NCBI GenBank assembly: GCA_017527945.1
Contig: JAFXPL010000111.1
Span: forward strand, 4,400-68,399
Source of the DNA: Bacteroidales bacterium
Lineage (GTDB): Bacteria > Bacteroidota > Bacteroidia > Bacteroidales > WCHB1-69
DNA length: 64,000 nt
Direction: 5' to 3'
The notes under the pieces were generated by a model that saw nothing but the letters and a program-made list of their open reading frames with translations, ran no database searches and had not been told where the DNA came from. This document shows positions 3,105 through 58,851 of this stretch, piece by piece. Position 1 is the stretch's first letter; every line of letters begins with the position of its first letter. A program made the translations under genes and the position numbers.

Positions 3105-3800
3105 ATGGGATACTGGATTATCTTTATCGCTTTGATGGTCGTGAGCTTCATCGTGCAGCGAACCCTGACCTCACGTATTGAAAAATATTCGAAAACCCCG
3201 CTCAGCAGCGGGCTCTCCGGCAAGGAAGTAGCCGAGAAAATGCTGAGAGACAACGGGATATACGATGTGCAGGTCACCTGCACCAACGGTTACCTCACCG
3301 ACCATTACAACCCTGCCACGAAAACGGTGAACCTGAGCCAAGGCGTCTATCAGGGCCGCAACATCGCCTCCGCCGCCGTCGCCGCACACGAGTGCGGGCA
3401 CGCCGTGCAGCACGCCACCGCCTACCAGTGGCTCACCATGCGCTCCAAACTGGTGCCCGCCGTACAGTTCGGCTCCCAGTTCTCGCAATGGATCCTGCTG
3501 GCCGGCATCGTGCTGATGAGCATGCAGCTGCTCAACGTCGGCCGCTGGGTGCTGCTCGTCGGCATCGCCTTCTTCGCCCTCACCACCCTCTTCTCCGTCA
3601 TCACCCTGCCGGTAGAGTACAACGCCTCCGAACGCGCCGTGGAATGGCTCGACACGCACGCCATCACCACCGGCAACGAAACCTCCATGGCCAAGGATGC
3701 CCTCAAGTGGGCCGCCCGCACCTACCTCATCGCCGCCATCTCCTCGTTGGCAACATTGCTGTATTACGTCATGATTTTCTTGGGAGGCAGACGGGATTAA
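3105..3800 (+). CDS. YugP-type membrane zinc metallopeptidase
   Basis: A 231-residue membrane peptidase of the YugP family (neutral zinc metallopeptidase, Zn_peptidase_2). Residues 1-18 form a first membrane helix. The zinc motif HECGH is at 95-99 in the context AVAAHECGHAVQHA. Two further hydrophobic helices follow (about 121-160) and one sits at the C-terminus. The motif, topology and length match the family; physiological substrates are not known. It probably starts a plus-strand series with DUF4831, a lipoprotein and YhcC. Its stop codon TAA is the end of the first unit of a GAATTAA heptamer array that fills the whole gap to the next start codon. Confidence 0.9.
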   Translation: MGYWIIFIALMVVSFIVQRTLTSRIEKYSKTPLSSGLSGKEVAEKMLRDNGIYDVQVTCTNGYLTDHYNPATKTVNLSQGVYQGRNIASAAVAAHECGHAVQHATAYQWLTMRSKLVPAVQFGSQFSQWILLAGIVLMSMQLLNVGRWVLLVGIAFFALTTLFSVITLPVEYNASERAVEWLDTHAITTGNETSMAKDALKWAARTYLIAAISSLATLLYYVMIFLGGRRD

Positions 3801-3835
3801 GAATTAAGAATTAAAAATTAAGAATTAAGGGTTAA
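3794..3835 (+). repeat. Heptamer array A, six units ending in TAA, starting at a stop codon
   Basis: Units in order: GGATTAA, GAATTAA, GAATTAA, AAATTAA, GAATTAA, GGGTTAA. The TAA of the first unit is the stop codon of the peptidase gene. One base (A3836) separates the last unit from the ATG of the next gene. Because 7 is 1 modulo 3, any three consecutive units put a TAA in each reading frame. This is read directly from the sequence; no function is known to me. Confidence 0.9.
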
Positions 3836-3836
3836 A

Positions 3837-4931
3837 ATGATAAAGAAGACATTCGTATATTTGGTGATTTGTGCGCTTGCGGTGCAAATGTCGGCGCAGG
3901 TGCAGGTTTATCCGTTGGGCAATCTGCCCGAGAAGGTGAAATATACCGGATCCGTCACGTACGCGCTTCCGACCACCACGCTGAAGGTGACGGTCTCCGT
4001 CTCCAAAGTGCGGGAGGTGCGGGGCTATTTCGCGGACTATGCCGAAAGCCTGCTCGGCCTGACCAACATCATCAAGCAGAACCAGACCCGCTATGCGCTG
4101 AACTCGGTGAAGGTGGAGCCCCTGCGGACGCCCGACCTGACGAACGTCTATCGCGCCTACACAACCAACGCGGCGGTTGCGGATGCCTGGGAGGCCGGAC
4201 GGAAATCTTCCACAGTGTTCCTTCCCGACACCGGCTTGATCGTTTACCAAACCCATACCGCCTCGCTGCCTGAATTTTTCAAGAACTATGCAGACATCTC
4301 CTACACGCAACAATCGGAGGCGTTCGTCGATACGAAAATCATTGACGGCGTGGTGACCCAGGTACCCGCCAGCCACACGAAGACCGTCTCCAAGAGCTTC
4401 GATAGCAAGGCGCGAGAGGCCGCCGACGCCATCATGAAGAGCCGCAAGGACCAATACGCGCTGGCCGCCGGGGAACAGGAGACCCCCTACAGCGGCGAAG
4501 CCCTCCAAACCATGCTCGCGGAATTGAAAAACTGGGAAAGCAACTACATGAGCCTCTTCACTGGCGTAACCGTCGCGGACACCATTGAGTACGTGCTGTA
4601 TCTGACCCCCTCTGACAATCTGAATGAACCGATGACCGCTTTCTACTTAAGCCCGGAAAAGGGCTTTGATACGGAAAAAGGCGCGGCGGCAAACGCCTAC
4701 CAGCTTTCCTTCAAACGCATGTACCAGCACCCTATCGAGAAAGTGTCATTGCAATACCCGACATCTTCCTACCTCACCCGCACGGAAATGCCGGTCCGGA
4801 TCTCCCTCAACCAAAACGGCCGCAGCCTCCACGACTTCGGCATCATCAACATGTATCAAGCGGGCGCCACCGTCTTTTCCTCCGCCAAACAGCCTGTCGA
4901 TATGAATTCCATCGGTTTTGTGTTCGAATAA
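3837..4931 (+). CDS. DUF4831-family exported protein
   Basis: A 364-residue protein with an N-terminal signal peptide (hydrophobic core about residues 5-17, ending MSAQ). The mature part has the organisation I associate with DUF4831, a family found mostly in Bacteroidetes: a conserved VYPLGNLPEKVKYTGSVTYALP start, two long central alpha/beta stretches with an acidic linker, and a C-terminal region ending SIGFVFE. The function is unknown. The start codon lies one base after heptamer array A. The gene sits between the YugP-type peptidase and a small lipoprotein, all co-directional with short gaps, so they are probably co-transcribed. The envelope location is supported by the signal peptide; the family name is from memory. 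Confidence 0.8.
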   Translation: MIKKTFVYLVICALAVQMSAQVQVYPLGNLPEKVKYTGSVTYALPTTTLKVTVSVSKVREVRGYFADYAESLLGLTNIIKQNQTRYALNSVKVEPLRTPDLTNVYRAYTTNAAVADAWEAGRKSSTVFLPDTGLIVYQTHTASLPEFFKNYADISYTQQSEAFVDTKIIDGVVTQVPASHTKTVSKSFDSKAREAADAIMKSRKDQYALAAGEQETPYSGEALQTMLAELKNWESNYMSLFTGVTVADTIEYVLYLTPSDNLNEPMTAFYLSPEKGFDTEKGAAANAYQLSFKRMYQHPIEKVSLQYPTSSYLTRTEMPVRISLNQNGRSLHDFGIINMYQAGATVFSSAKQPVDMNSIGFVFE

Positions 4932-4956
4932 CCCCGCCAACCCATTGTCTTGACCT

Positions 4957-6395: not shown

Positions 6396-6405
6396 TCTAA
6401 AACAA

Positions 6406-6431: not shown

Positions 6432-6439
6432 ACTGTTTG

Positions 6440-6514
6440 TGGGACGTACTGGACTCGAACCAGTGACCTCTGCCGTGTGAAGGCAGCGCTCTGAACCGAC
6501 TGGGCTAACGTCCC
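6440..6514 (-). tRNA. tRNA-Val (anticodon CAC)
   Basis: On the minus strand the RNA folds as a cloverleaf: acceptor stem GGGACGT/ACGTCCC, discriminator A, anticodon stem CTGCC/GGCAG around the loop TTCACAC (anticodon CAC, codon GUG, valine), and T-arm ACTGG-TTCGAGT-CCAGT. No CCA is encoded; the bases after the discriminator are CAA. The D-stem GCCC/GAGC contains one C-A mismatch (positions 12-23), where GCTC would be usual. It lies downstream of the helicase gene on the same strand, after heptamer array D. Confidence 0.93.
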
Positions 6515-6611
6515 TCATTTGCGGCTGCAAAAATACACTTTTTTCTTATACCTGCGCCTTGTTTGGAAAAAAATATTTTTCGGCCGCGCAAGAATTTGTG
6601 TTTCAATGATT

Positions 6612-6646
6612 TCAAGTTTCAGATTTCAGGATTCAAGTTTCAGGAT
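6612..6646 (-). repeat. Heptamer array D, five units ending in TGA, starting at a stop codon
   Basis: Minus-strand units in transcription order: ATCCTGA, AACTTGA, ATCCTGA, AATCTGA, AACTTGA, then a 9-base degenerate unit AATCATTGA. The TGA of the first unit is the stop codon of the helicase gene. It has the same architecture as arrays A, B and C, but with TGA as the repeated triplet. Confidence 0.85.
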
Positions 6647-8076
6647 TCGGGATCTGTCCCAAACATTTCATCGTTGAAGTTCAGCAGATAGACCTGTTCC
6701 GTGCCGCGCGTGACGGCGGTGTACATCCAACGGAGATACTCCTTGTCGGTGCTGTTGTCGGGCAGATAGCCCTGGTCGATGAGCACATGCTTCCACTGGC
6801 CGCCCTGGGTCTTATGGCAGGTCAGCGCGTAGGCGAACTTCACCTGCACGGCGTTCAGGAAGGGGTCTTCCTTCACCTTCATGAACCGCGCCCGAGGGTT
6901 GACAATATCCATATAGTCCTCAGCCACTGCATAGTAGAGTTTCTGATTCGCCTCGTGCGAGAGCGACGGTCCATCGCAGTCGAGGCTCTCCAAAATAATC
7001 TTCAAGTCCACATACGGATGCTCGGGATAGTCACACAGGCGCACGGTCACGTCCGCGAAATGGAAACCGTAGAGTTCCTCCTGCTTGTGTATGGACATAA
7101 TCTCCATGATGTCGCCGTTGGCCAAGAAGCCCGCCTCGGAGAGTTCGTCTAACCAATAGTAATTATTCTTCACCGCCATAATGTAATCGCCTGTGGCAAT
7201 GATATTTTCGCGGAAGAGCACGCGGCTTCGCACGGCATTGTTGAACTGGAAGGCACGCTTGTTGGAGCGCGTCACAATGACGATTTCGTCATGGTCGTGG
7301 TCATTGTAGAGGGTGTTGAGCAGCTCCTCCATCTCGCCGCCGCTGATGCGCCGGAAATCCTCGAACGGCCTTCCGCTGAACAACGGCGGAGTGTAGTCGC
7401 CAGCGTTGAGTTTGTCGCGCACCCGCGTGGCATTGTAGAGAATGCCCGAATCGAGCGACTGGCGCACCACATCGGTCAGCTTCGCCCCGAAAACTTCCAC
7501 ATTATAGGCACTTCTCAGATAATCGGCATCCAAAGCGGGACTCTCGTCCGCATGCACCGGCGGCAACTGCGCGTCATCGCCCACGAACAGCATCCGGTTG
7601 CTGTCGCCGAGAAACACAAACTCCATCAGGTCGTCCAACAAACTATTGCCCGTCAAGTCGTTGACGCTTCCCTGCGCCGAAATCATCGAGGCTTCATCAA
7701 CGATGAAAAGCGTGTGTGCGTCCTTGTTTTCACGCCGCACAAACCGACGAACCCCCTCCTTGCTATAGACCCGGTATATCCACTTGTGGATGGTGTAGGC
7801 CTTGCGTCCGGAATACTGCGAAAGCACCTTGGCGGCCCGGCCCGTGGGCGCGAGCATCACAATGTGCACGCCAATGCCGGACAGCGTCTTCACCAACGCG
7901 CTCACCAGACTGGTCTTGCCCGTGCCGGCATACCCCGACAACTGGAAGAGGAAGTTCTCTCCCTTGCCGTAGATGAAATCGGCAAGCCGGCCCATGGCCG
8001 ACGCCTGGCTGACGGTCGGCTCGAAGCCGAAATTCCGGCGCAGACTCTCTTCGAATGTGCCTCTGCTTCTGTCCAT
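6640..8076 (-). CDS. RecD/Dda-like superfamily 1 DNA helicase
   Basis: A 478-residue ATP-dependent helicase of the RecD2/Dda type. Walker A is GYAGTGKTS (48-56) and Walker B is FIVDEAS (124-130). A PTGRAAK motif (77-83) and the C-terminal UvrD-like motif ALTCHKTQGGQW followed by YTAVTRG are also present. These motifs in this order are diagnostic of SF1B 5'-3' helicases. The short form lacks the long RecD2 N-terminal region, and the likely role is in DNA repair or replication restart. The promoter TACCTTTG is at 8156-8163. Its TGA stop begins heptamer array D, and tRNA-Val follows on the same strand. Confidence 0.9.
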   Translation of the reverse strand: MDRSRGTFEESLRRNFGFEPTVSQASAMGRLADFIYGKGENFLFQLSGYAGTGKTSLVSALVKTLSGIGVHIVMLAPTGRAAKVLSQYSGRKAYTIHKWIYRVYSKEGVRRFVRRENKDAHTLFIVDEASMISAQGSVNDLTGNSLLDDLMEFVFLGDSNRMLFVGDDAQLPPVHADESPALDADYLRSAYNVEVFGAKLTDVVRQSLDSGILYNATRVRDKLNAGDYTPPLFSGRPFEDFRRISGGEMEELLNTLYNDHDHDEIVIVTRSNKRAFQFNNAVRSRVLFRENIIATGDYIMAVKNNYYWLDELSEAGFLANGDIMEIMSIHKQEELYGFHFADVTVRLCDYPEHPYVDLKIILESLDCDGPSLSHEANQKLYYAVAEDYMDIVNPRARFMKVKEDPFLNAVQVKFAYALTCHKTQGGQWKHVLIDQGYLPDNSTDKEYLRWMYTAVTRGTEQVYLLNFNDEMFGTDPES

Positions 8077-13530: not shown

Positions 13531-16401
13531 ATGAAAATAGCACGCACATTACTGTTTTTAGGGACATACTTGTTCATCTTCAATTTCACGACATTCGCTT
13601 CGCCCGTTGACCGCGCCACTGCACAACAAATTGCTACAAATTTCTGGACCTCAGTCGCCCCAGGATTATCCGCACGATGGGCTGACATCACCCCAAACAC
13701 AGACTTTCACGAGTTCTACCTTTTCAAAAACACGGAAGGGAAAGGATTTGTCATCATCGCGGCCGACAACTGTGTCCAGCCCGTTTTAGGATACTCCACT
13801 ACCAACGAAGCCAGAACTCCCCTACCCGACCACATCCTCTTTTTCCTGCAAGAGTACGAACGGGAAATCGCCTTCCACAAAAGCCAACAAACACCCGCTA
13901 CAGAAACTATCGAGCAACTTTGGAGCTCACTTTTGCAAGGAAACTATGCCGCACTCGCCACCACGTCAGTCGCACCGCTATTAACCACTACCTGGGACCA
14001 AAGTCCTTACTACAACAATCTTTGTCCCGACTCAGCCGGCACCCATGCCGTGGCGGGATGCGTGGCCACCTCCGTCGCACAGCTGATGAAATACTGGAAC
14101 TGGCCGGTCACCGGCAACGGCTCGCACAACTATACGGACGCGACCTTCGGACCGCTGTCTGCCGATTTCGGCTCCACCACCTACGACTGGGCCAATATGC
14201 CAAATACACTGAACTTCGGCAGCACCGCCACGCAGGTAAACGCCGTGGCGACCCTGATCTACCACATCGGGGTGGCCGTGGAGATGCAATATGGCATCAA
14301 CGGCAGCGCCGCCACCCTCAATTCGTACGGGTTTCCGTTCCTGGCCTGCGGCGAGAACGCATTGAAGAACTACTTCCGCTATAAGGGTTCCCTACACGGG
14401 GTTTACAAAAGCCAGACATCAGATGCCAACTGGATCTCCACCCTCACCACCGAAATCGACGCTGGCCGGCCGGTGCTGGAACGCGGCGACGGCGATGGCG
14501 GCGGGCACGCTTTCGTGTGTGACGGCTACGACAACAATGGAATGTTCCACATCAACTGGGGTTGGAGCGGCTACATGGACGGCTACTTCGCCCACAATGC
14601 CCTGAACCCGGGCGCGGGCGGCACCGGCGGCAATAACGGCTACAATTTCAGCAGCAACATCGCCGTCATCGTGGGCATTGAGCCCAACGGCCTGCTCACC
14701 TGCTATCCCCATTCGCTCACATTCGAACAAGAAGGCGGAAGCACCTCCTTCCTTATCACGCCGAACAACGCCAACGCATCGAATTGGCTGGCCTCCTGCA
14801 ATGAACCCTGGCTGACCATCACCCCTACCTCTGGCAACCCGTCAACAGGCTCTGTCACCGTGACGGCCACAGCCGCCCCTAACAACACAGGCGGCATCCG
14901 GACAGCGGTCATCACTATCACCCAAGGCACGCAGACCGCATCCATTCAAGTGGTCCAGAATGAATGCGCCGTTTCTGACCAATGCACCGTCACCCTACAG
15001 ATGAACGACACCTACGGCGACGGCTGGAACGGAGCTTCGCTCTCCGTCAGCTCGGCAAGCGGCTATACGTATGGCACCTTCACTTGCACGGAAGGTTCCA
15101 CAACCCAAACGTTTGACGTATGTCCATCAGAGCTACTTATAACTTGGAATACAGGATCTTACGATCAAGAATGTGCTTTCATCCTCTATAACGACAGCGG
15201 CGACACACTGCTCAACATCGCCAACAATCCATCCGGTATCTACACGATTGCGCAACCCTGCGACACCACGCAGCCGCAAGGTCCATTCACCGTCACCGTG
15301 GTCTCTAACAGCAGCGTGATGGGGTCTGCCACCGGCGGCGGCGTGTTTGAGGACGGGACAAGCACCACGTTACAAGCAACGGCCAACAGCGGCTACCGAT
15401 TCACCGGCTGGAGCGACGGCAATACCCAAAACCCACGCCCCGTCACGGTGACCGCCAACATCCTCTACACCGCCCTGTTCGACAACCTCGGCGACTACGA
15501 GCGTCATTACGACAATGGAGAGATGGCCAACAGCATCGGCGCTGGCACCACCGTCTATTGGGGTGTCCGATTCCCCTCGGGAACCCTTTCTCCCTACGAC
15601 TCCATCACCGCCATCCGCCTTTGGGACAACGAGCCCGGCAACTATGAACTGCGCATCCACCAAGGCGGCACCTCATCGCCGGAAAACATAATTGTTTCGC
15701 AGACTTGCCAGTTTTACGGATCCGGCGACTGGCGGGAAATCGAACTGGACACTGCCGTCTTCATTGACCATACCCAGCCCCTGTGGGTCACCTTCAGCAC
15801 CAACGGTGTAGCGCACCCCGCCACGGGCAGCCACTACGCCGGCAACCCCGACGGCTCCTGGCTGTCCTCTAACGGCTCCTACTGGGGGTCGGCCAGGGAC
15901 TTCGGCTTCGACCTCACCTGGATGATACGAATCCTGCTGTCCAATACCGTCGAGCCTCCGCAACAGTACAGCGTCACGGTTTTGTCTGCCGACAACAACA
16001 TGGGCTACGCAACAGGCGGAGGCACCTACGACTTCGGCACGGAGGTCCGAATTGAGGCAATCCCCCGCCAAAACCACATTTTCACCCAATGGAACGACGG
16101 GGACACAAACAATCCGAGAGACATTATCGTTCTCAACGACATCACCTTTATCGCTGAATTCCAGTCCACCATCGGAATTGACGACCTGGCATTCCCACAA
16201 GTTCACGTTTATAGCCACGACCGCCAGATTGTGGTGGAGAACGCTGAGGGAATCAACGTAGAAATTATCGACCTCACTGGCAGAATCATCGCCTGCAAAA
16301 CGCAAGACCTCCACAGCCGCAATGTGTTCGAAGTAAGCTCTTCTGGTCTCTATTTTGTACGTCTTGGCAACCGAACTGTAAAGAAGGTAGTTATACGATA
16401 A
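13531..16401 (+). CDS. Secreted C10 (streptopain-like) cysteine protease with T9SS sorting domain
   Basis: A 956-residue secreted protease. Residues 1-24 are a signal peptide, followed by a pro-region with the Spi-like stretch EFYLFKNTEGKGFVIIAADN. The peptidase C10 domain has nucleophile Cys177 (HAVAGCVATSVAQLMKYW) and His326 (GGGHAFVCDGY). A BACON-type Ig-like domain spans about 388-478, then a Cys-containing beta domain. Two copies of a bacterial repeat (TGWSDGNTQNPR-like and TQWNDGDTNNPR) flank another beta domain. The C-terminal ~75 residues have the type A T9SS sorting pattern ending GLYFVRLGNRTVKKVVIR. The start is the ATG after the promoter. It is probably exported by the T9SS encoded at 29.7-35.7 kb. 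Confidence 0.92.
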   Translation: MKIARTLLFLGTYLFIFNFTTFASPVDRATAQQIATNFWTSVAPGLSARWADITPNTDFHEFYLFKNTEGKGFVIIAADNCVQPVLGYSTTNEARTPLPDHILFFLQEYEREIAFHKSQQTPATETIEQLWSSLLQGNYAALATTSVAPLLTTTWDQSPYYNNLCPDSAGTHAVAGCVATSVAQLMKYWNWPVTGNGSHNYTDATFGPLSADFGSTTYDWANMPNTLNFGSTATQVNAVATLIYHIGVAVEMQYGINGSAATLNSYGFPFLACGENALKNYFRYKGSLHGVYKSQTSDANWISTLTTEIDAGRPVLERGDGDGGGHAFVCDGYDNNGMFHINWGWSGYMDGYFAHNALNPGAGGTGGNNGYNFSSNIAVIVGIEPNGLLTCYPHSLTFEQEGGSTSFLITPNNANASNWLASCNEPWLTITPTSGNPSTGSVTVTATAAPNNTGGIRTAVITITQGTQTASIQVVQNECAVSDQCTVTLQMNDTYGDGWNGASLSVSSASGYTYGTFTCTEGSTTQTFDVCPSELLITWNTGSYDQECAFILYNDSGDTLLNIANNPSGIYTIAQPCDTTQPQGPFTVTVVSNSSVMGSATGGGVFEDGTSTTLQATANSGYRFTGWSDGNTQNPRPVTVTANILYTALFDNLGDYERHYDNGEMANSIGAGTTVYWGVRFPSGTLSPYDSITAIRLWDNEPGNYELRIHQGGTSSPENIIVSQTCQFYGSGDWREIELDTAVFIDHTQPLWVTFSTNGVAHPATGSHYAGNPDGSWLSSNGSYWGSARDFGFDLTWMIRILLSNTVEPPQQYSVTVLSADNNMGYATGGGTYDFGTEVRIEAIPRQNHIFTQWNDGDTNNPRDIIVLNDITFIAEFQSTIGIDDLAFPQVHVYSHDRQIVVENAEGINVEIIDLTGRIIACKTQDLHSRNVFEVSSSGLYFVRLGNRTVKKVVIR

Positions 16402-16409
16402 CATAAAAA

Positions 16410-17066
16410 ATGACAGATAATACGGCACGAAACACTGACGAGGCTCCCTTCATCGGCATTAGCCGCCACCGTATCGGGGTGGATGGCGAGGGTGTGACCA
16501 CGTTGGCGGCCTTCCACGGCTGTCCGTTGCGGTGCCACTACTGTCTTAACCCCGCTTGCCTAAATGCCGATGCCCCTGTCCATCGCTTCACACCGGAAAG
16601 CCTCTACCAGCAGCTACGCATCGACGACCTCTACTTTGTGGCCACAGGCGGCGGCGTTTGCTTCGGCGGCGGCGAACCGCTGCTCCGCCCCAAGTTCATC
16701 CGCCAATTCCACGCCCTTTGCGCCGAACGCTGGAAAATCACCGTGGAGACCTCGCTGAACGTACCACTAACTTCCCTGCAAACAATCGCATCCATCACCA
16801 ACGACTTCATCATCGACATCAAGGACGCTGACGACAGGATTTACACCGCCTACACGGGAAAATCGAACGCACAAGTGTGGGAAAACCTGAAGTGGCTCGC
16901 CACAAACTACGACCGCGAGCACGTCATCCTGCGCACCCCAATCATCCCGGATTTCAACACCGAAGAGGATGTGGAACGTAGTATGGAACGGCTTTCTATG
17001 TTGGAATTCAGAAAGTTCGACCGATTTACCTATCGAACCACACAATCGGCTACTCAGCCTTCATGA
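16410..17066 (+). CDS. Radical SAM protein, glycyl-radical activase-like
   Basis: A 218-residue protein with a canonical radical SAM cluster motif, C38-C42-C45 in HGCPLRCHYC. It also has GGGVCFGGGEPLL and FIIDIKDAD, as in pyruvate formate-lyase activating enzymes. It is shorter than PFL-AE (about 245-300 residues) and has no ferredoxin insert, so the target protein is unknown. It begins 8 bases after the C10 protease stop, suggesting co-transcription, although no glycyl-radical enzyme is present in the window. Its end overlaps by 17 bases the 3' end of the convergent beta-helix gene. Activation of a distant glycyl-radical enzyme is the simplest reading. Confidence 0.8.
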   Translation: MTDNTARNTDEAPFIGISRHRIGVDGEGVTTLAAFHGCPLRCHYCLNPACLNADAPVHRFTPESLYQQLRIDDLYFVATGGGVCFGGGEPLLRPKFIRQFHALCAERWKITVETSLNVPLTSLQTIASITNDFIIDIKDADDRIYTAYTGKSNAQVWENLKWLATNYDREHVILRTPIIPDFNTEEDVERSMERLSMLEFRKFDRFTYRTTQSATQPS

Positions 17067-19428
17067 GCTTCACCGTCACGGTCTGTCCGTCGGAAGAGCG
17101 CAGACGAAGGAAATACATCCCGGCAGGGAACGCTGACATGTCAACGACCGCATTGCTGTTATCCAAGCGACCAGACATAACATCCTTGCCATACATGTCG
17201 CAGACATGGAAATCCACATTCTCCATCGCCCCATCCACCTTGAAAATCGAATTCGACGGATTCGGCGAGACCGTCACCTGCAACGCATCGTACGTTTCGA
17301 CCCCTACCGGTTCCGTCACATTGAGAATCTTCATCACATTTTGTGCGGGGGCATACTCGTCGTTGCCTGGCTGCGAGGCCGTGATGATGGCCAAGCCCAC
17401 GCTGTGCATCGTCAAGATACTGCCGTTAACTGTGGCCACGCTCTCATCGCTGCTTGTGAACTGCACGGGCAGTCCGGAGGTGGCGGATGCGGCCAGCACT
17501 ACAGGCTCATCGCTCATCGGGAAGATGAGCTCCTGATTCCAGAGGATGCTTTGCGGCTGCAGGTCGGAAATGCTGCTTGTCACGGTGAGAATCTTTGAGA
17601 CATCCGCAGCGGCGTTCCAGGTGGCATTGCCTGGCTGCGAGGCAGTGACAATGGCATAGCCGGCACCATGAAACGTAAGCACATTGCCGTTCACAGTGGC
17701 GATGTCTTCGTTGTTACAGGTGTATGTTACGGGCAGTCCGGAGGTGGCCGTGGCGTTAAGGGTCAGTGTGCCGTCGGAGAGGTCGGCGGTGAGGTCCTGA
17801 TTCCACGTGATGCTCTGGTTGAAGGTGGTGTTGGAAAGCTCGTAAGCCCCGATGTCGGCACGGTTGTTGCCGATGCGCGGGTTGCCGTCCATGTCGGTGG
17901 CGGGCAGGTAGGTGATGAATGCCGTGTTCGGGTCGCCCGCGTCAATCAACGGCGAATTGGGCATCACGTGCCAGTCTGCGTTGAGGTTTGACAGATCCGT
18001 GGCAATGGAGGAGGCACCCACCATGAACGAAGGAGACACGAACTGCGGCAGAGTGGCCGTATCCAACACCATGTTGGTGCTGTCTAAAGCAAAGTCGCTG
18101 GCGGATACTGACTTACAAGCGCAGTATGTGTAAGGAAACGTATAATTCGTGGACCAATGCAAATCTTGGGAAGCATTGCCGTGCATATTGTTCCAGATCA
18201 CCGTGTTCTTGACGGTGGCGGCGGAAGTGGTGCGAATACCACCTGTGCCATCGGCATGGCTGGTCTGTGCCAGATTGTTGGCAACCACGCAGTTTGCCAT
18301 ATACATCCTTCCTACGGGGTTTCCGCTGGAAGGTCCTCCCGATGATGTAGCGTACGAATAGGTAACCACACCGCCGGTCACATCAATGCCTTCGGTAGAA
18401 ATGGCGCTGTTGTTGGCAATCACACAGCCGATAATGTGCGCGGGATGAGTGAAAACGCTGACACCTCCGGCGATATATGGCCGGCTGCCGCTTGTGCTGG
18501 CGGTGGTGGCGGTGGTGTAAACCGTGTTGTCAATGATACGCGAGTTGATAATCTGCCATTCGTTTCTCGTCGGATGATAAAGAAAATCGTTGGCTTGCGT
18601 CAGTATGCCGCCAGCCTTGGCATCCAAGCCCGAAGCAGTGTTCTTTGTGATGTCACAGTTTTTGACAATGACCGTATTGTACGGTGTCGTGTAGTCAGCA
18701 TTGAAACATATTCCACCGCATTGACTGCCCGTGTTTCCTGTAATTTCACAGTTGTTGAACTCGTAGGTGGCCCCATAACTTTGGCTGCCGCTGTACATCC
18801 GGACACCGCCGCTCAATGTGTTTCCATAAATCTTGCAGTCCGAAACTTGAAACGTGGCATTGTAGTATGAGTTGGAATATGACATTCCCAAATACAAACC
18901 GCAGGCATTTCCAGTCATGGTACAATTCGAAATCGTGTGGGTATTGTTTGCCTCGTCGCGGATACCGTACTGATTGCCGCCTGTCACATAGAAACCATCG
19001 AAAGTGTTTTCCCGGCAATGATAACTGCCGTTGTAGTGAAAGTAGCTGTTGATTTGTACGGCATAGTTGTTGTCGTGTTGTGCATCAATAATAGTACAGG
19101 AACTGTCAGCGGCGATGCCGTAAGTGAGCGATTGCCGCTCATAGAGATGGTTTTCCGTACCCGCGAAGCCGCCGTACACATGCGTGCCGTTCTTAATGGT
19201 GCAGGCCGGGTAGGTGCCCGTCGCCACGAACACCGAGTCGTCGTTAGGTGAGGTGACTAATGCCATCGCCCCGTTGATGGTGGCCTTGGCCGTGGCCCAC
19301 GACAGGCCGTCGTTGCTGTCGTTGCCGCTGTTGGAGACAAAATAGGTGGTCTGCGCGGAAAGCGAAACACACAGCATCATCAAAACCAATTGGATTGCAA
19401 TCTTTTTCATTATCATATTCATTTTCAT
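17050..19428 (-). CDS. Secreted right-handed beta-helix protein with T9SS sorting domain
   Basis: A 792-residue secreted protein. After a signal peptide ending SLSAQ comes YFVSNSGNDSNDGLSWATAK, the start of choice-of-anchor-Q/parallel beta-helix proteins. Repeated turns with Asn-rich rungs (NCEITGN, NCDITKN, NSRIIDN) indicate a parallel beta-helix up to about residue 500. Two homologous Ig-like domains follow, sharing ITWNQ/ILWNQ, ATSGLPV and ASQPGN. A type A T9SS sorting domain (VSPNPSNSIFKVDG ... GMYFLRLRSS) closes the protein. The ATG at 19428 is chosen from a run of ATGs (19428, 19422, 19416, 19410). Such proteins often bind or cleave polysaccharides, but no catalytic site is evident. Confidence 0.88.
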   Translation of the reverse strand: MKMNMIMKKIAIQLVLMMLCVSLSAQTTYFVSNSGNDSNDGLSWATAKATINGAMALVTSPNDDSVFVATGTYPACTIKNGTHVYGGFAGTENHLYERQSLTYGIAADSSCTIIDAQHDNNYAVQINSYFHYNGSYHCRENTFDGFYVTGGNQYGIRDEANNTHTISNCTMTGNACGLYLGMSYSNSYYNATFQVSDCKIYGNTLSGGVRMYSGSQSYGATYEFNNCEITGNTGSQCGGICFNADYTTPYNTVIVKNCDITKNTASGLDAKAGGILTQANDFLYHPTRNEWQIINSRIIDNTVYTTATTASTSGSRPYIAGGVSVFTHPAHIIGCVIANNSAISTEGIDVTGGVVTYSYATSSGGPSSGNPVGRMYMANCVVANNLAQTSHADGTGGIRTTSAATVKNTVIWNNMHGNASQDLHWSTNYTFPYTYCACKSVSASDFALDSTNMVLDTATLPQFVSPSFMVGASSIATDLSNLNADWHVMPNSPLIDAGDPNTAFITYLPATDMDGNPRIGNNRADIGAYELSNTTFNQSITWNQDLTADLSDGTLTLNATATSGLPVTYTCNNEDIATVNGNVLTFHGAGYAIVTASQPGNATWNAAADVSKILTVTSSISDLQPQSILWNQELIFPMSDEPVVLAASATSGLPVQFTSSDESVATVNGSILTMHSVGLAIITASQPGNDEYAPAQNVMKILNVTEPVGVETYDALQVTVSPNPSNSIFKVDGAMENVDFHVCDMYGKDVMSGRLDNSNAVVDMSAFPAGMYFLRLRSSDGQTVTVKLMKAE

Positions 19429-19474
19429 AACTTTACTCCGTAAACAAGCTACACAAACCTTAGATTTGCCGCCG

Positions 19475-19482
19475 CGAAAATA
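19475..19482 (-). promoter_or_regulatory. -7 promoter element TATTTTCG for the beta-helix gene
   Basis: One mismatch to TAnnTTTG (TTCG), the same variant as at parC, followed by CGGCGG and the gene start 47 bases on. Confidence 0.55.
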
Positions 19483-19543
19483 CACTTTTTTTAAATCATG
19501 ATAGATTTCGGAATTTCAGTAAGTTAAACCTCATCCTCCATTT

Positions 19544-22992: not shown

Positions 22993-23057
22993 GTTTAGAA
23001 AGTTTACGGGGTTAGAAAGTTTACGGGGTTAGAAAGTTTATGAGTTTAGAAGTTTAT
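22993..23057. repeat. 17-bp tandem repeat upstream of dnaN
   Basis: Two near-identical copies of a 17-base unit (GTTAGAAAGTTTACGGG on the plus strand) plus two decayed copies, covering the gap between the DUF3109 stop and the dnaN promoter. On the minus strand each unit contains TAAACTTTCTAA. Confidence 0.85.
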
Positions 23058-23071: not shown

Positions 23072-23644
23072 TCAAACCTTTGAACGAAGGGAGACCATCT
23101 CCTCCAATTCAGCGAACCATTCTGCGCCATACTTGGCAATCAGCGGCTCCTTCAGGAAACGATAGACAGGCAGCTTCAGGCGATTGCCGTTCTCCACGGC
23201 CGTCTTGCAAATCGACCAATGGTCATAGTTCAACGCCTCATACTCCCCCACCCTGCTGACCCGAATCGGGTACAGGTAACAGGAGATTGGCTTCCTGAAC
23301 GGAATTTCACCGAGGCGGAAGCACTTTTCAATGGCACATTTCGCGACCCCGTCTTCGAAAAAGGCGAAAGCGCACGCATCGTTGCTTTCCACTAACGGGG
23401 TTTCAAAGGAGTCGTCTCCATTGAAGACAAAGGTGCCGCCGTTTTCCACGACGGCGACACCTTCTTCTGTCATATATTTACTATAATCAGGATAAAAGTC
23501 CTCTAACTCAGCAACTTCCTCGGGCGACACTGGAGCGCCGATGTCACCCTCAACACAACAAATGCCTTTACATTGCGCAAGATCGCAACAGAAACATTTG
23601 TCAATCAGCTCTTCCGAGACAAGGACATTCCCTACTATCAGCAT
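23072..23644 (-). CDS. DUF3109-family cysteine-rich protein
   Basis: A 190-residue cytoplasmic protein with a conserved N-terminal cysteine cluster (CFCCDLAQCKGICCVEGDIGAP) and further Cys residues in CAFAF, KCAIEKC, SCYLYPIR and SICK. These fit DUF3109, a Bacteroidetes-enriched relative of the YkgJ/CxxCxxCC metal-binding proteins. A metal or Fe-S centre is likely; the function is unknown. The ATG at 23644 is 10 bases after the tryptophanase stop codon, so the two genes are probably co-transcribed. A TTG at 23653 is an alternative start. Confidence 0.85.
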   Translation of the reverse strand: MLIVGNVLVSEELIDKCFCCDLAQCKGICCVEGDIGAPVSPEEVAELEDFYPDYSKYMTEEGVAVVENGGTFVFNGDDSFETPLVESNDACAFAFFEDGVAKCAIEKCFRLGEIPFRKPISCYLYPIRVSRVGEYEALNYDHWSICKTAVENGNRLKLPVYRFLKEPLIAKYGAEWFAELEEMVSLRSKV

Positions 23645-25667: not shown

Positions 25668-26396
25668 TTATTTTTTCTTCTTGAAGGATCTGTTGAGTTC
25701 ATCCAAGACTTCATTCGTGATGTCATGGGCCGGATCGGCGTAAAGAAGCTGGCCGCCAGACTGATAACTGAAGATGTAGGATGCATTGTGTGCGGCATTA
25801 ACGCGCTGCGCAGCGGCATTCAGCGAGTCGGCCATCTGGGTCAAAGCCGCAGTATAACGGGCTTCCAGCGACTCCACGGCCTGCGCATAGTCGTTCTGCA
25901 AGCGCGTGCTCTCCTCCTGAAGGTTCTGCTGGGCATACTGGGCCTGCTGGGGCGTCAGCGAACCGGAACTGTAGTTCTTCTCGAAATTTGCAGCCTTCTG
26001 TTCCAATGCCTTCTGGCGGTTCTGGAACACCACTGCCTGCTTTTGCTTTTCCGAATCAATACTGTCCGTCAAAATCTTGACCAGCTCATAATGTTCATTG
26101 ATTGTGTCTATATTGATGAACACCACCTCTCCAGTGCCCTTCTCGGCAGGTTTTGCCACCACAGCCGTCTTTTTCCCTGCATTCCCGCAGCAGAAGTGCA
26201 GTATATACAGCACTATCACTGCGACCAAAAGCACTCCTTCTACAATCCAGTGCATCACAGAGGTCTTGTCCTTCGGAGCCTTTTCTTCCTCCGACACCGT
26301 CGTCGGTGCATCAACCACCACAAAACCTTTCTCATCCACGACCGTCGCATTGTTTTCAGCGACCCCATTCGTCATTTCATCGTTCATTTCTTCCAT
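25668..26396 (-). CDS. OmpH/Skp-like protein with an internal membrane anchor
   Basis: A 242-residue protein whose C-terminal two thirds match the OmpH/Skp pattern: FINIDTINEHYELVK, then a long coiled coil rich in Gln, Glu and Ala (about 115-200), and ending DITNEVLDELN. Skp-like proteins chaperone outer-membrane proteins in the periplasm. Unusually, there is no cleavable signal at the start. About 48 acidic, hydrophilic residues precede a single membrane helix (WIVEGVLLVAVIVLYILHF, about 50-68) ending in a CCG. The domain would therefore be tethered to the inner membrane, like the MORN-like protein that follows. The start lies 10 bases after heptamer array B. Confidence 0.85.
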   Translation of the reverse strand: MEEMNDEMTNGVAENNATVVDEKGFVVVDAPTTVSEEEKAPKDKTSVMHWIVEGVLLVAVIVLYILHFCCGNAGKKTAVVAKPAEKGTGEVVFINIDTINEHYELVKILTDSIDSEKQKQAVVFQNRQKALEQKAANFEKNYSSGSLTPQQAQYAQQNLQEESTRLQNDYAQAVESLEARYTAALTQMADSLNAAAQRVNAAHNASYIFSYQSGGQLLYADPAHDITNEVLDELNRSFKKKK

Positions 26397-26406
26397 ATTC
26401 CAATTT

Positions 26407-26476
26407 CTAAACTCTAAGTTCTAAATTCTAAGTTCTAAATTCTAAGTTCTAAGTTCTAAGTTCTAAATCCTAATTA
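26407..26476 (-). repeat. Heptamer array B, ten units ending in TAG, starting at the recQ stop codon
   Basis: Minus-strand units in transcription order: TAATTAG, GATTTAG, AACTTAG three times, AATTTAG, AACTTAG, AATTTAG, AACTTAG, AGTTTAG. The TAG of the first unit is the recQ stop codon. The array ends 10 bases before the ATG of the OmpH-like gene, filling the junction. Confidence 0.92.
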
Positions 26477-28671
26477 CCAACATCCGACAAGTATTTGATT
26501 CTCATGATTCGGATTTCCTCCAAAGTATATTCATCCTCACCAAGCACGCGCAGGGCCTCCTCGGCAGAATCTGTATCCGCATTGGCGAAATAATCGATGA
26601 TATCCTCCTGGTGATAAGGCTCGATTTCCTCGTCAATATAATAGGAGATGTCAATTTTAGCGCCGGAAGCCACAATATGCTCGATTTCCGTCAGCAACTC
26701 GTCCATATCCATGCCTTTGGCGATGGCGATGTCCTCAAAACTGATCTTATGGTCAATCCCTTGGATGATAAACAGCTTGTTGGCCGACTTCTTGGCGACC
26801 GTTTTCAGCACAAAATCCTGCGGGCGGTCGATCTCGTTCTCTTCAACATATTGTTTGATGAGTTCGATGAAACGTCGTCCGTATTTTTGTGCTTTTCCAG
26901 GGCCCACGCCCACCACCCGAGTCATCTCCTCCATAGTGATGGGATATTGGATGCACATGTCTTCCAACGAGGGGTCTTGGAAAATGACAAACGGCGGCAG
27001 GTTTTCCTCCTTGGAGATGGTTTTGCGCAAATCCTTCAGCAGACTGAACAGCACGGTGTCGAGGGCCTCCTCCACATTGCCGGCCACGGCATCCACTGCG
27101 GCATCCTCGTCCTCGTCCTCCTCCGATGCAGGTTTGATTGCCATAATCGGATATGGATTGTTCATGTATTTCTTGCCCTTGTCCGTAATTTTCAGCAGGC
27201 CATAATTCTCTATATCCTTGACAATCAAATTGTCGAAAATGGAAACGCGGACGATATTGGACCAGAATTTGGCATCATAGTCCATGCCTTCGCCAAACTG
27301 TTTCAGTTTCTCATGATGAAACTTCAGGATCGACGTGGTTTTGTTGCCACAGATGATATCGACGATCTGGTCTTCCTTGAACTGCTGTTTCACGGCCAGA
27401 ATCACCTCCAGCATCAACTGAATCTGCTCCGATGCGTCCATCTTGGGTTTCGGATGGTTGCAATTATCGCAGTTATGGCAGTTTTCTTCCGTGTAATTCT
27501 CGCCAAAATAGTGCAGAAGGTGCTTGCGGCGGCAATTCGTGGATTCGGCATACGCGGCAGTCTCGGCCAGCAGCTGCTTCACGATTTCCTGCTCTGACAC
27601 GGACTTCTTCGCCGAAAACTTCTCCAGTTTGTTCAGGTCTTTCTGGTCATAGAAAGCGATGCAAAGCCCTTCGCCGTCGTCACGACCCGCGCGACCCGTC
27701 TCCTGGTAATACCCTTCCAGGCTCTTGGGCATGTCATAGTGGATCACGAAACGTACATCGGGCTTGTCGATACCCATTCCGAAAGCGATGGTGGCCACAA
27801 TCACCTCGGCCTTTTCCATCAGGAAATCATCTTGGTTCTGCACACGGGTTTTGGAGTCAAGCCCCGCATGGTACGGCAATGCACGAATGCCGTTCTCCTG
27901 CAACAACACGGCCAGTTCCTCCACTTTCTTACGACTCAGGCAATAGATGATGCCTGATTTGCCGGGATGATTCTTGATAAATTTAACCACCTCCTTGTCA
28001 ACATCTTTCGTCTTCTCCCGAATTTCGTAATACAGATTCGGACGGTTAAACGAGGATATGAACACCTCCGCCTTGTCCATGCCGAGGTTTTTCTGAATGT
28101 CGCTTTGTACCTTCGGTGTTGCCGTGGCAGTAAGGGCTATCACCGGCACATCCTTGCCGATCTGCTGGATAATCTTTCGAATATTCCGATATTCGGGGCG
28201 GAAGTCATGCCCCCACTCCGAAATACAGTGCGCCTCGTCGATGGCGTAGAACGATATGTTGATGTCTTGAAAGAAGTTGACATTCTCTTCCTTTGTTAAG
28301 GACTCGGGTGCCACATACAGCAACTTTGTCTTCCCTGAAAGCAAATCTTTCCTGACTTCAGAAATCTCCGCCTTGTTCAGCGATGAGTTCAAGAAGTGCG
28401 CAATCCCGCGGTCGGTCCCGAACGTGCGGATCGCATCCACTTGGTTCTTCATCAAAGCAATCAAAGGCGAGATGACAATGGCCGTGCCATCGCTCATCAG
28501 CGCAGGCAACTGGTAGCACATTGACTTGCCTCCGCCTGTGGGCATTATCACAAAACAATCCTTCCCTTTCAACAATGTCTTGATGATTTTCAGTTGATCA
28601 CCCTTGAACGTGTCAAACCCGAAAACCGTTTTCAACGTCTGATAAATAGCCTTGTCCGTAATTCTCTTCAT
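26470..28671 (-). CDS. recQ: ATP-dependent DNA helicase RecQ
   Basis: A 733-residue 3'-5' DNA helicase for recombination repair. Walker A is PTGGGKS (44-50) and the DEAH box is at 145-148 in AIDEAHCISEWGHDFRPEY. The conserved helicase motif GMGIDKPDVRFVIHYDMP is followed by the four-cysteine zinc site (C-x-...CHNCDNC) and a winged-helix RQC domain. An HRDC domain appears around PPFVIFQDPSLEDMC, and a C-terminal extension of about 100 residues follows. The promoter TATCTTTG is at 28732-28739. The gene heads a minus-strand series with the OmpH-like, MORN-like, tnaA and DUF3109 genes. Its TAG stop starts heptamer array B. Confidence 0.96.
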   Translation of the reverse strand: MKRITDKAIYQTLKTVFGFDTFKGDQLKIIKTLLKGKDCFVIMPTGGGKSMCYQLPALMSDGTAIVISPLIALMKNQVDAIRTFGTDRGIAHFLNSSLNKAEISEVRKDLLSGKTKLLYVAPESLTKEENVNFFQDINISFYAIDEAHCISEWGHDFRPEYRNIRKIIQQIGKDVPVIALTATATPKVQSDIQKNLGMDKAEVFISSFNRPNLYYEIREKTKDVDKEVVKFIKNHPGKSGIIYCLSRKKVEELAVLLQENGIRALPYHAGLDSKTRVQNQDDFLMEKAEVIVATIAFGMGIDKPDVRFVIHYDMPKSLEGYYQETGRAGRDDGEGLCIAFYDQKDLNKLEKFSAKKSVSEQEIVKQLLAETAAYAESTNCRRKHLLHYFGENYTEENCHNCDNCNHPKPKMDASEQIQLMLEVILAVKQQFKEDQIVDIICGNKTTSILKFHHEKLKQFGEGMDYDAKFWSNIVRVSIFDNLIVKDIENYGLLKITDKGKKYMNNPYPIMAIKPASEEDEDEDAAVDAVAGNVEEALDTVLFSLLKDLRKTISKEENLPPFVIFQDPSLEDMCIQYPITMEEMTRVVGVGPGKAQKYGRRFIELIKQYVEENEIDRPQDFVLKTVAKKSANKLFIIQGIDHKISFEDIAIAKGMDMDELLTEIEHIVASGAKIDISYYIDEEIEPYHQEDIIDYFANADTDSAEEALRVLGEDEYTLEEIRIMRIKYLSDVGN

Positions 28672-55467: not shown

Positions 55468-55473
55468 AGCTGG

Positions 55474-56493: not shown

Positions 56494-56562
56494 ATTCAAA
56501 CTTATTTTATATTACTAATTTTCAATAACTTATGAAACAAAACAACTTTTTTCAAAGCGTAG

Positions 56563-56570
56563 CAAAAGTA
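56563..56570 (-). promoter_or_regulatory. -7 promoter element TACTTTTG for the DUF4328-like gene
   Basis: TAnnTTTG match followed by CTACGC, 70 bases before the ATG. Confidence 0.7.
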
Positions 56571-56627
56571 ATAAAAAAATCAATACCTTTACGGTTCTTC
56601 AAAAAAAAGCCGCCAAAGGTGCCGATA

Positions 56628-58763
56628 TCACTCTTTTTCCAGAGCCAGACTGATTCTTTTACGTTCCACCTCAACCCCTTCCACTTTCACCATAACTTTC
56701 TGGTTGAGATGAACCACCTCAGACGGGTCGGAGATTCGGCGGTCGCTCAAACGACTGATGTGGATCAAGCCATCTTGGTGGACTCCGATGTCCACAAAAC
56801 AGCCGAAATTGGTGATATTGGTGATGATTCCGGGCAGCACCATGCCGACAGTCAAGTCGTGAATGGTGTGCACATTCTTGTCGAACTCGAACATCTCGAA
56901 CTGCGTGCGCGGGTCGCGGCCCGGTTTCGCCAGTTCCTTCATAATGTCCTCTAACGTGGGCATTCCAACCTTGTCTGTTATATAGTTCTGCAAGACAATC
57001 TGTTGCCGTAAATCCTTGTTTTTAATCAGGTCAGAAACGGAGCAGTGCAGGTCGTCAGCCATACGTTGCACGATCTTGTAGCTTTCCGGGTGCACGGCAC
57101 TACCGTCGAGCGGGTTTTCAGCCTCGCGGATGCGCAGGAAACCGGCGGCCTGCTGGAAAGCTTTCGCTCCGAAGCGTGGCACCTTTTTCAAGGCTTCGCG
57201 GGAGGCGAACGGTCCGTTCTCGTTCCGGTAGTCGATGATGTTCTGCGCCAAGGCAGGACCGACCCCCGAAACGTACGACAGCAGTTGCTTGCTCGCCGTG
57301 TTCAATTCAACGCCCACATAGTTGACGCAGCTTTCCACCGTCGTCTGCAGACTCTCCTGCAGCATCTTCTGGTTCACATCGTGCTGATACTGCCCCACCC
57401 CGATGGATTTCGGGTCGATTTTGACCAATTCGGCAAGCGGGTCCATGAGACGGCGCCCAATGGAGACGGCACCGCGCACCGTCACGTCGTAGTCAGGGAA
57501 CTCCTCGCGGGCCACCGGCGAGGCCGAATAGACCGACGCGCCGCTTTCGTTGACCATAAAGGCCTTGACCTCGCGTTCAAAGGGAATGTGACGCACGAAG
57601 TTCTCCGTTTCGCGCCCTGCAGTGCCGTTTCCGATGGCGATGGCATCCACTTTATACTGAAGGACCAACCGCTTCAGCTTGTCGGAGGCCAGCTTGTACT
57701 GCGCCACCGGCGGATGCGGGTAAATCGTCTCGTTGTAGAGCAGCTTGCCCTGCGGGTCAAGGATAACGACCTTGCAACCCGTTCGGAAGCCAGGGTCGAT
57801 GGCCAGCGTGGTGACCTGTCCCAAAGGGGCTGCCAGCAGGAGCTGCCGGGCGTTTTTCGTGAACACGGAGATGGCTTCCTTGTCAGCCTTTTCCTTGTAG
57901 AATTTGCGCATTTCTGTCTCCATCTGGGGTTGGAGGAGCCGTTTGTAGGAGTCAACGGCAGCCTGCCAGACCTGTTGGGCGCAGTTGCTGTTGTTCCTTA
58001 TAACACGATGCTTCAAATCGGCGAGCGTCCGCTCTTCGTCGGGAGCGATGTGCACACGCAGGATGCCCTCCTCCTCGCCGCGCAGCATGGCCAAGATGCG
58101 ATGCGACGGGGCTTTGGCAAGCAATTCCTCCGCCTTGTAATAGATACGGTACTTTTCGTCCTCATCGACTTTGTCAGGAATCAGACGAGTGGAGATACGG
58201 CTGTAGCGGAGGAACGTACCGCGCAAGCGGTTCCGGACTCCGACATTTTCGCTAATCAGCTCAGCAATAATGTCGCGAGCTCCAGCGATGGCCTCCTCTT
58301 CGGAAGCCACGCCTTTTTCCTCGCTGACATACTTCGCCGCTTCGCGCTGCAGGTCAACCGGGCGTTGCTGCCAAAGCAGTTTCGCCAGCGGCTGCAGCCC
58401 TTTCTCCACAGCGACCGACGCACGGGTCTTGCGTTTGGGGCGATACGGGAGGTAGAGATCCTCCAAGACAGCCATCGTCTCCGCCTGCTCGATTTTCTCA
58501 CGCAGTTCAGGGGTAAGCTTGCCTTGCTCAGAAATAGAGTCTAAGATAGCTGCGCGACGCTTGTCAAGCTCCAACCACTTGATATAAAGCTCTTTGATGT
58601 TTCCAATCTGCACCTCATCCAACGACCCCGTCGCCTCCTTACGATAACGGGAGATGAACGGGATGGTGGCACCGGTCTCCATCAAGTCAAGCGTGTTCCG
58701 CACCTGCTCCTCGGAAAGGTTCAGTGCCTGCGCAATCCGTAACGCATAATTCTGTTCCGACAT
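56628..58763 (-). CDS. tex: Transcription accessory protein Tex
   Basis: A 711-residue RNA/DNA-binding protein related to eukaryotic Spt6. Recognisable parts are the Tex N-terminal helical region (IPFISRYRKEATGSLDE, LYLPYRPKRKTRA) and the YqgF/RuvC-like domain (LAIDPGFRTGCKVVILD). The helix-hairpin-helix segment with YVGVELNTAS and LLSYVSGVGPALAQNI follows. The C-terminal S1 domain reads ITNFGCFVDIGVHQDGLIHIS. It is about 60 residues shorter than E. coli YhgF, as in other Bacteroidetes. Heptamer array C sits between it and the FKBP gene upstream. Confidence 0.95.
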   Translation of the reverse strand: MSEQNYALRIAQALNLSEEQVRNTLDLMETGATIPFISRYRKEATGSLDEVQIGNIKELYIKWLELDKRRAAILDSISEQGKLTPELREKIEQAETMAVLEDLYLPYRPKRKTRASVAVEKGLQPLAKLLWQQRPVDLQREAAKYVSEEKGVASEEEAIAGARDIIAELISENVGVRNRLRGTFLRYSRISTRLIPDKVDEDEKYRIYYKAEELLAKAPSHRILAMLRGEEEGILRVHIAPDEERTLADLKHRVIRNNSNCAQQVWQAAVDSYKRLLQPQMETEMRKFYKEKADKEAISVFTKNARQLLLAAPLGQVTTLAIDPGFRTGCKVVILDPQGKLLYNETIYPHPPVAQYKLASDKLKRLVLQYKVDAIAIGNGTAGRETENFVRHIPFEREVKAFMVNESGASVYSASPVAREEFPDYDVTVRGAVSIGRRLMDPLAELVKIDPKSIGVGQYQHDVNQKMLQESLQTTVESCVNYVGVELNTASKQLLSYVSGVGPALAQNIIDYRNENGPFASREALKKVPRFGAKAFQQAAGFLRIREAENPLDGSAVHPESYKIVQRMADDLHCSVSDLIKNKDLRQQIVLQNYITDKVGMPTLEDIMKELAKPGRDPRTQFEMFEFDKNVHTIHDLTVGMVLPGIITNITNFGCFVDIGVHQDGLIHISRLSDRRISDPSEVVHLNQKVMVKVEGVEVERKRISLALEKE

Positions 58764-58788
58764 TCTTTTGCTTTTTTACATTTTTAGC

Positions 58789-58851
58789 TAACCAGCCAAC
58801 AGCTAACAGCTAACAGCTAACAGCCAACAGCTAACAGCCAACAACTACTTC
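58789..58851 (-). repeat. Heptamer array C, CTGTTAG-type, starting at an FKBP stop codon
   Basis: Minus-strand units in transcription order: GAAGTAG, TTGTTGG, CTGTTAG, CTGTTGG, CTGTTAG three times, CTGTTGG, then an 8-base variant CTGGTTAG. The TAG of the first unit is the FKBP stop codon. The array ends about 25 bases before the tex ATG. It has the same design as arrays A, B and D. Confidence 0.92.

Follow-up and report, generated by a model that had tools for sequence, protein, structure and literature searches.

Heptanucleotide arrays often begin at stop codons in a clade of Bacteroidales, and a minority share the phase and triplet of the stop

Introduction

Four genes in a 64,000-nucleotide stretch of DNA from a Bacteroidales bacterium (positions 4,400 to 68,399 of contig JAFXPL010000111.1, assembly GCA_017527945.1; hereafter the window), which encode a YugP-type zinc metallopeptidase, a helicase, RecQ and an FKBP-type peptidyl-prolyl isomerase, are followed by tandem arrays of 7-bp units in phase with the stop codon. 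In the window and 16 related genomes, arrays of this kind begin at stop codons much more often than random placement predicts, and a minority of them share the phase and the triplet of the stop. The observation is real and statistically supported, and the likeliest account is that heptamer satellites are born at or just behind stop codons, the in-phase stops being a by-product that would render slippage harmless. The four arrays had been described in a first-pass annotation of the window. All of them are present where it placed them and in the register it gave, and the units of each repeat the gene's own stop triplet (TAA after the metallopeptidase gene, TGA after the helicase gene, TAG after recQ, and TAG with some TGG after the FKBP gene).

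The data set of 1,578,955 bp comprised the window and sequence from 16 draft genomes of related Bacteroidales. The clade is a group of gut bacteria. This near clade corresponds to 16 of 80 RecQ loci, with RecQ 95–97% identical, supplemented by 60 segments, each 20 kb long, taken from 11 of these genomes; the draft genomes of the relatives are recorded as metagenome-assembled genomes (MAGs) or as uncultured isolates. Genes were called by our own codon-model script (1,096 genes, 81% coding); the calls are uncurated, and their stops are firmer than their starts. Arrays were accepted at period 7 with a score of at least 12. After 11 of 214 arrays without a flanking gene and 5 in gaps longer than 1500 bp had been dropped, 198 arrays with 222 stop flanks remained, an array between convergent genes contributing two stop flanks. 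One genome (G016) supplies 75 and another (G006) 41 of the 203 arrays flanked by genes on both sides.

Arrays at stop codons

Position within the junctions was compared to a null in which every array was placed uniformly inside its own junction. Array starts fell between −3 and +3 of the stop end in 60 of the 222 flanks (17.4 expected) and between −7 and +3 in 79 (29.3 expected), and none of 2000 placements reached either count. In co-directional junctions, the stop-side peak was about 3.5 times the null (46 arrays between −3 and +3, 13.2 expected), compared to about twice the null on the start side, where 16 of 152 arrays lay 0 to 3 nucleotides from the next called start (7.7 expected). Another 18 of these 152 arrays had a start-side gap of 4 to 10 nucleotides, so that 34 lay within 0 to 10 nucleotides (19.6 expected), and 5 overlapped the called start. 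By junction type, 152 arrays were found in 123.8 kb of co-directional, 35 in 27.7 kb of convergent and 11 in 30.4 kb of divergent junctions, which corresponds to densities of 1.23, 1.26 and 0.36 per kb. Among the stops overlapped by arrays, 28 of 62 were TAG, compared to 28% among all genes. The point needing explanation is that so many arrays begin at stop codons.

Arrays with a period of seven are themselves in excess. The same sequence contains 214 intergenic period-7 arrays (about 135 per Mb) and only 14 in coding sequence, although 81% of it is coding. Intergenic arrays at periods of 5, 6, 8, 9, 10, 11 and 13 numbered 0, 17, 17, 3, 6, 8 and 19, respectively, and no period-7 array was found after block shuffling, in which three groups of sequences were shuffled once each. 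An initial count based on a different gene model gave 24 arrays in 379 kb of the near clade and 26 in 853 kb around the next 44 RecQ loci, compared to 3 in 395 kb around the 20 most distant loci, Bacteroides among them. The units are diverse, with 74 strandless units in 198 arrays and a G fraction of 0.18 in the sense units of co-directional junctions. They include AACAGCC (9), AAGAATT (8) and AACTGCT (7) among the 75 arrays of G016 and AACCCAT (6) among the 41 of G006.

Phase and identity with the stop

Register was scored in 95 of the 222 flanks, namely those in which the array starts between −14 and +10 of the stop and continues for at least 21 nucleotides beyond it, with the array consensus taken only from bases past the stop codon. 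The in-phase triplet was a stop in 26 of these 95 flanks, while the six other offsets gave 7, 10, 6, 11, 9 and 8 (about 8.5 expected). In 20 of the 26, this triplet was the same as the gene's own stop, compared to 10.4 by permutation, and none of 5000 permutations reached that number. Flanks in register made up 22 of 70 in co-directional and 4 of 25 in convergent junctions. The outcome was similar across score cuts from 8 to 18. When the sample was split, the window together with G016 gave 12 in register against 1 to 7 at other offsets, and the other 15 genomes gave 14 against 3 to 8. With one flank counted per upstream gene family (151 clusters), 18.2 were in register against 6.1. Thus, the scan for period-7 excess, register and triplet identity that the first-pass annotation had proposed found all three above expectation in the near clade, and the pattern it described was not refuted. 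Register is nevertheless a minority feature across the clade, and the four in four of the window is an unusually neat draw.

Outside the near clade, six more distant genomes of the order yielded 33 stop flanks, of which 6 abutted an array, with 2 in register compared to 0 to 2 at other offsets; gene calling was poor in two of the six (coding fraction 0.50 in G210 and G090). With so few arrays, the stop-register pattern was not replicated beyond the near clade.

Orthologous junctions

The four junctions, picked because the window bears in-register arrays there, were followed among relatives in 17 recQ, 17 FKBP, 13 helicase and 16 YugP sequences, counts to which the window contributes. The set omits the FKBP loci L097–L100, which are more distant, and two helicase loci, L122 (truncated) and L124 (a duplicate). 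An array abutted the stop in 41 of the 63 sequences, of which 20 were in register, compared to 1 to 5 at other offsets, and 16 repeated the identical stop. Once the four sequences of the window are set aside, 16 of 37 were in register. The recQ row of locus L059 was mis-framed by a frameshift and scored as having no array, although its junction shows TTAATGG units. The frameshift in this draft lies close to the recQ 3′ end and is either a sequencing error or real.

Each orthologous junction carries several unrelated units, which bears out the earlier statement that the four arrays are not copies of one element and rules out copies of one mobile element as their source. Between the window and G016, the recQ, helicase and YugP junctions have arrays with different units (protein identities 97%, 87% and 86%, respectively), whereas at the FKBP junction (98–99% identity) the units of the window are kept with a length difference of 15 nucleotides. 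Locus L081 has the same units as the window, with a distance from the FKBP stop to the tex start that is 15 nucleotides (two units and one base) shorter.

The gene ends themselves are stable. Near-clade RecQ proteins have Gly-Asn as their last two residues (L059 when read past its frameshift) and YugP proteins have Arg-Asp, and these constant C-termini indicate that the arrays did not shift the ends of the two genes. Orthologs in other genomes were found for 19 in-register genes, and 16 of these have the same end codon as at least one ortholog. This rules out, for most of them, that genes simply run on into an array to its first stop; at the helicase junction, where the protein tail is variable, such run-on may still apply. 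At that shared end, an ortholog with a different stop codon was found for 12 of the 16.

Origin of the arrays

Judging from sequence, we regard it as somewhat probable that these intergenic arrays are satellites of heptanucleotide units which tandem duplication of 7 bp and slippage create and rapidly renew, and whose preferred sites of nucleation are the stop codon or the bases directly behind it. A duplicated 7-mer that contains the stop would disturb neither its first copy nor the reading frame and would be tolerated, while growth in the upstream direction would be vetoed because seven is not a multiple of three. The stop would then be the first of a series of identical in-phase triplets, and loss of a unit would restore the same stop at the same place, so that such arrays could slip without harming the gene. 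The frame-independent stops that they contain would be a by-product. One candidate reason for a hot spot at stops is nascent RNA that the last ribosome leaves uncovered in its wake, together with R-loops. The earlier suggestion that arrays grow by slippage from the gene end gains support from the peak of array starts at the stop, the phase (26 of 95, about 8.5 expected), the same triplet in 20 and the unchanged ends of 16 of 19 genes.

Several observations weigh against birth at the stop codon as a full account. Most stop-abutting flanks (69 of 95) are out of register, and arrays that start 0 to 10 nucleotides past the stop have no register (4 of 43 at offset 0, and 1 to 7 elsewhere). Register is thus limited to arrays overlapping the stop, for which it holds partly by construction. 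Seven in-register YugP relatives have one unit, TTCATAA, and may represent one event. Orthologs with a different stop are as common among genes not in register (28 of 38) as among those in register, so that stop switching is not tied to register. At the coding edge, agreement with the array at −1 to −3 is only a little above permutation (0.35–0.39 against 0.26–0.32), and few seeds can therefore have carried coding bases along; at −4 and −5 it is at the level of permuted arrays, and at −6 and −7 it is clearly higher (0.44 and 0.37 against 0.29 and 0.25), so that the edge is sharp but not perfectly clean. Finally, pairs of arrays with the same unit are commoner within genomes (159 of 4072) than between them (181 of 15,889), which hints at the spread of ready-made arrays. 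This comparison is no more than a hint, because its orthology filter, a shared 15-mer, may be tripped by the arrays themselves; under this filter, a unit is shared in 79 of 431 orthologous pairs.

Two further explanations appear doubtful. One holds that stop codons are satellite birth sites, where a process linked to translation termination duplicates the heptamer containing the stop, and that homogenisation of the array can later rewrite the stop of the gene, the identity of the stop at a fixed codon then following the local satellite; the rewriting half is weakened by the equal frequency of stop switching without register. The other, which we rate no higher, is that ready-made arrays are copied into gene ends as cassettes through TAG, TAA or TGA microhomology with the stop, which would yield both the register and the same triplet. 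Palindromic TAGAGACG elements of the same genomes, unrelated in sequence to the heptamers, offer a model for such copying: 9 of 32 copies begin exactly at the stop codon and provide their own TAG as the stop, in a count of copies from −10 to 60 nucleotides of a sense stop that includes orthologous copies. Heptamers may thus not be the only repeats that anchor at stops. The excess of TAG among overlapped stops, the unit families that appear specific to G016 and G006 and the commoner sharing of units within genomes fit such spread as well. However, 74 strandless units in 198 arrays are more variety than a few cassettes would yield, and arrays just behind stops show no register. It is unlikely that coding sequence acts only as a boundary, with arrays arising anywhere between genes, spreading until coding halts them and including the stop where the unit fits. 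The control-level match at −4 and −5, the scarcity of arrays in divergent junctions, the milder pile-up at starts and the stop switching without register would all be expected from a boundary, but the match at −6 and −7 lies above control, the stop-side peak in co-directional junctions is much higher relative to the null than the start-side one, and the own-stop identity of in-register arrays exceeds permutation (20 against 10.4).

Functional explanations fare worse than satellite birth at stops. A role of the arrays as spacers that tune translational coupling, or as an unstructured leader of the next gene, seems very unlikely to us. The arrays behind the YugP and recQ genes extend to the next ATG, and start-side gaps of 0 to 10 nucleotides are in excess. 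Convergent junctions, which have no next start, are nevertheless as rich in arrays as co-directional ones (1.26 and 1.23 per kb), which leaves the expandable coupling spacers of the first-pass annotation unsupported, and the FKBP–tex junction shows the opposite of an unstructured leader, with 13 of 17 sequences predicted to fold more strongly than shuffles (z < −2), compared to 2 of 16, 1 of 13 and 1 of 16 at the other junctions. Selection for frame-independent translation stops that block read-through, also proposed earlier, is the least credible explanation and has hardly any probability in our judgment. A stop-bearing unit of period 7 does close all frames within 21 nucleotides, and units with a sense-strand stop exceed the shuffled expectation (103 of 152 co-directional arrays, 76 expected). 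The antisense strand is nearly equal (95 of 152), however, and for arrays more than 10 nucleotides from a stop the two strands are level (42 of 73 sense, 41 of 73 antisense), so that, in this comparison of strands in the array units, nothing points to selection of sense-strand stops in their own right. Of 198 genomes of the order, 78 contain one or more stretches with TAG five times at a spacing of 7. This pattern exceeds its reversed (GAT) control in G016 (281 against 33), G210 (260 against 0) and G087 (227 against 11), but the reversed pattern dominates in G097 (0 against 111), G114 (1 against 129) and G213 (11 against 169). GAT-type units may contain other stops, so that the scan is weak evidence.

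Comparison with known repeats

Heptanucleotide repeats near stop codons are already known from Xanthomonas and Beggiatoaceae, and the following comparisons refer to the available parts of the cited papers. Rehm et al. 2015 (PMC4692102) described GGGAATC and GGGGA(C/T)T heptamers in Xanthomonas and Nostoc that are mostly intergenic, with a strong bias near or over the stop codon. In Xanthomonas they lie mostly between aligned open reading frames (ORFs), with 16% in convergent and 7–8% in divergent junctions. Most occupy matching junctions in a pair of species, where their length and sequence vary, and some form inverted pairs in Xanthomonas. Their unit is of one G-rich, quadruplex-forming type, with a strand preference set by the side of the ORF. 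The arrays of the near clade resemble them in being mostly intergenic, stop-proximal, rich between aligned ORFs and poor in divergent junctions (35 convergent and 11 divergent of 198). Compared to these repeats, the near clade has 74 strandless units that are not G-rich and do not belong to the GGGAATC family, although they work like the type. The available parts of PMC4692102 do not report the phase of the stop or the identity of the triplet.

MacGregor 2015 (PMC4679880) described TAACTGA direct repeats in Beggiatoaceae and some Cyanobacteria and Bacteroidetes, which also give stops in all three frames. They are mostly located just upstream of start codons, and 13 sets overlap the upstream stop in the forward orientation. 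While the TAACTGA repeats have one unit and a start-side position, the near-clade arrays have varied units anchored at the stop, with only 16 of 152 at 0–3 nucleotides from a called start. TAACTGA is not among the four units of the window, and its rotation AACTGAT is absent from the 40 of 74 strandless units listed; two arrays of the distant G097 have an AACTGAT unit. The tandem repeats of archaeal Borgs (PMC9879509) are likewise recent and independently arisen, with the first unit sometimes wholly or partly inside the gene end, as in some of the arrays here. Borg units are perfect and enriched in A, and the available parts of that paper state neither a period of 7 nor a stop register.

According to the accounts in PMC4679880 and PMC4692102, Mrazek et al. 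2007 found heptanucleotides over-represented among long simple sequence repeats (SSRs) of prokaryotes and proposed slippage tied to the stretch of DNA contacted by the polymerase; these accounts do not mention anchoring at stops. A 2025 survey (PMC12699852) listed Bacteroidota as a phylum of high repeat density, and a survey of prokaryotic satellites (PMC6749651) mentioned heptamer-derived families, both as far as their available sections go. A search of the literature accessible outside most subscription journals, partly in excerpts, found neither arrays described as sharing the phase and triplet of the gene's stop nor any mention of units being replaced at orthologous stop junctions. This suggests that the lock of phase and identity with the stop is an apparent new twist on a known type of repeat. 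The positional preference of bacterial heptamers thereby becomes a testable rule: the arrays begin at the stop, and a minority share its phase and triplet. Such a rule offers a way to study the sites and mechanism by which bacterial short tandem repeats originate, and the reason that a unit length of seven is favoured. It also carries a caution, since the stop content of such arrays is no ground for inferring a regulatory function.

The four arrays of the window

The array behind the YugP-type zinc metallopeptidase gene (3105..3800, plus strand; Pfam Zn_peptidase_2) lies at 3794..3835 on the plus strand and has a score of 21.8, with the unit GAATTAA and the stop TAA (3798–3800) closing the first unit. 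On the sense strand, GAT and the stop are followed by GAATTAA, GAATTAA, AAATTAA, GAATTAA and GGGTTAA and then AATG, so that the array ends 1 nucleotide before the ATG at 3837 of the gene for a DUF4831 protein (3837..4931, plus strand). The array behind recQ (26470..28671, minus strand) lies at 26391..26473 on the minus strand and has the highest score of the four (39.6). Its unit is AACTTAG, with AATTTAG, and the sense strand reads AAT, the stop TAG (26470–26472), GATTTAG, AACTTAG and so on through nine post-stop units up to the next start codon. The detected periodicity enters the downstream ORF for an OmpH-like protein (25668..26396, minus strand) by 6 nucleotides.

The array behind the FKBP gene (58845..59696, minus strand) lies at 58793..58847 on the minus strand, with units CTGTTAG and CTGTTGG and a score of 32.8. 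The sense strand reads AAG, the stop TAG (58845–58847), TTGTTGG, CTGTTAG and so on, so that the first post-stop unit carries TGG. The gene for Tex (56628..58763, minus strand) starts 29 nucleotides beyond the end of this array. The array behind the helicase gene (6640..8076, minus strand; Pfam AAA_30 and UvrD_C_2), whose product has a tail that differs between species, is the weakest of the four, with a score of 11.8 that is slightly below the cut of 12. It lies at 6610..6653 on the minus strand, with units that end in TGA (AACTTGA, ATCCTGA and AATCTGA). The sense strand reads TCC, the stop TGA (6640–6642), AACTTGA, ATCCTGA, AATCTGA and AACTTGA, and the periodicity extends 11 nucleotides into the helicase coding sequence. 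The co-directional neighbour of this array is a gene for tRNA-Val (cac) at 6439..6514 on the minus strand, about 95 nucleotides away. All four arrays thus lie between co-directional genes, as the first-pass annotation had stated. Its further statement that three of them almost fill the junction to the next start is correct for the YugP and recQ arrays, which reach it, and does not apply to the helicase array, with its distant tRNA gene, or to the FKBP array, which stops short of tex. At a score of at least 8, the window contains three more period-7 stretches (8110, 17505 and 63068), each of about two copies.

Minor observations

Inverted copies are frequent among neighbouring array pairs (10 of 55, compared to about 2.5 expected from random pairs). 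At the FKBP–tex junction, many of the loci L082–L096 have an array followed by its reverse complement, with long hairpins predicted; L087 has a perfect stem, and in L091 one arm has apparently expanded into an array. In L053, four AATGAAT-type arrays lie within about 5 kb (15582–20728), and the sequence in front of each is similar and ends in AATTAGCA or TATTAGCA. The triplet contained in period-7 runs shows a sharp contrast within one order, with mainly GAT in G097, G114, G119 and G213 and mainly TAG in G016, G087 and G210.

Among the matches listed, a palindromic repeat (TAGAGACG... / TAGGGGCG...-like) begins exactly at the stop TAG of the gene orthologous to window positions 19544–20821 in L003 and L004, and one in L004 and L006 starts at the stop of the gene orthologous to 23072–23644, with its TAG serving as the stop. 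Diverged palindromic forms are present behind the latter ortholog in L005, L007 and L008, again among the matches listed. In the window itself, the gene at 23072–23644 (minus strand) is followed by a 17-bp tandem repeat, TTAGAAAGTTTACGGGG, of 3.7 copies at 22995–23056.

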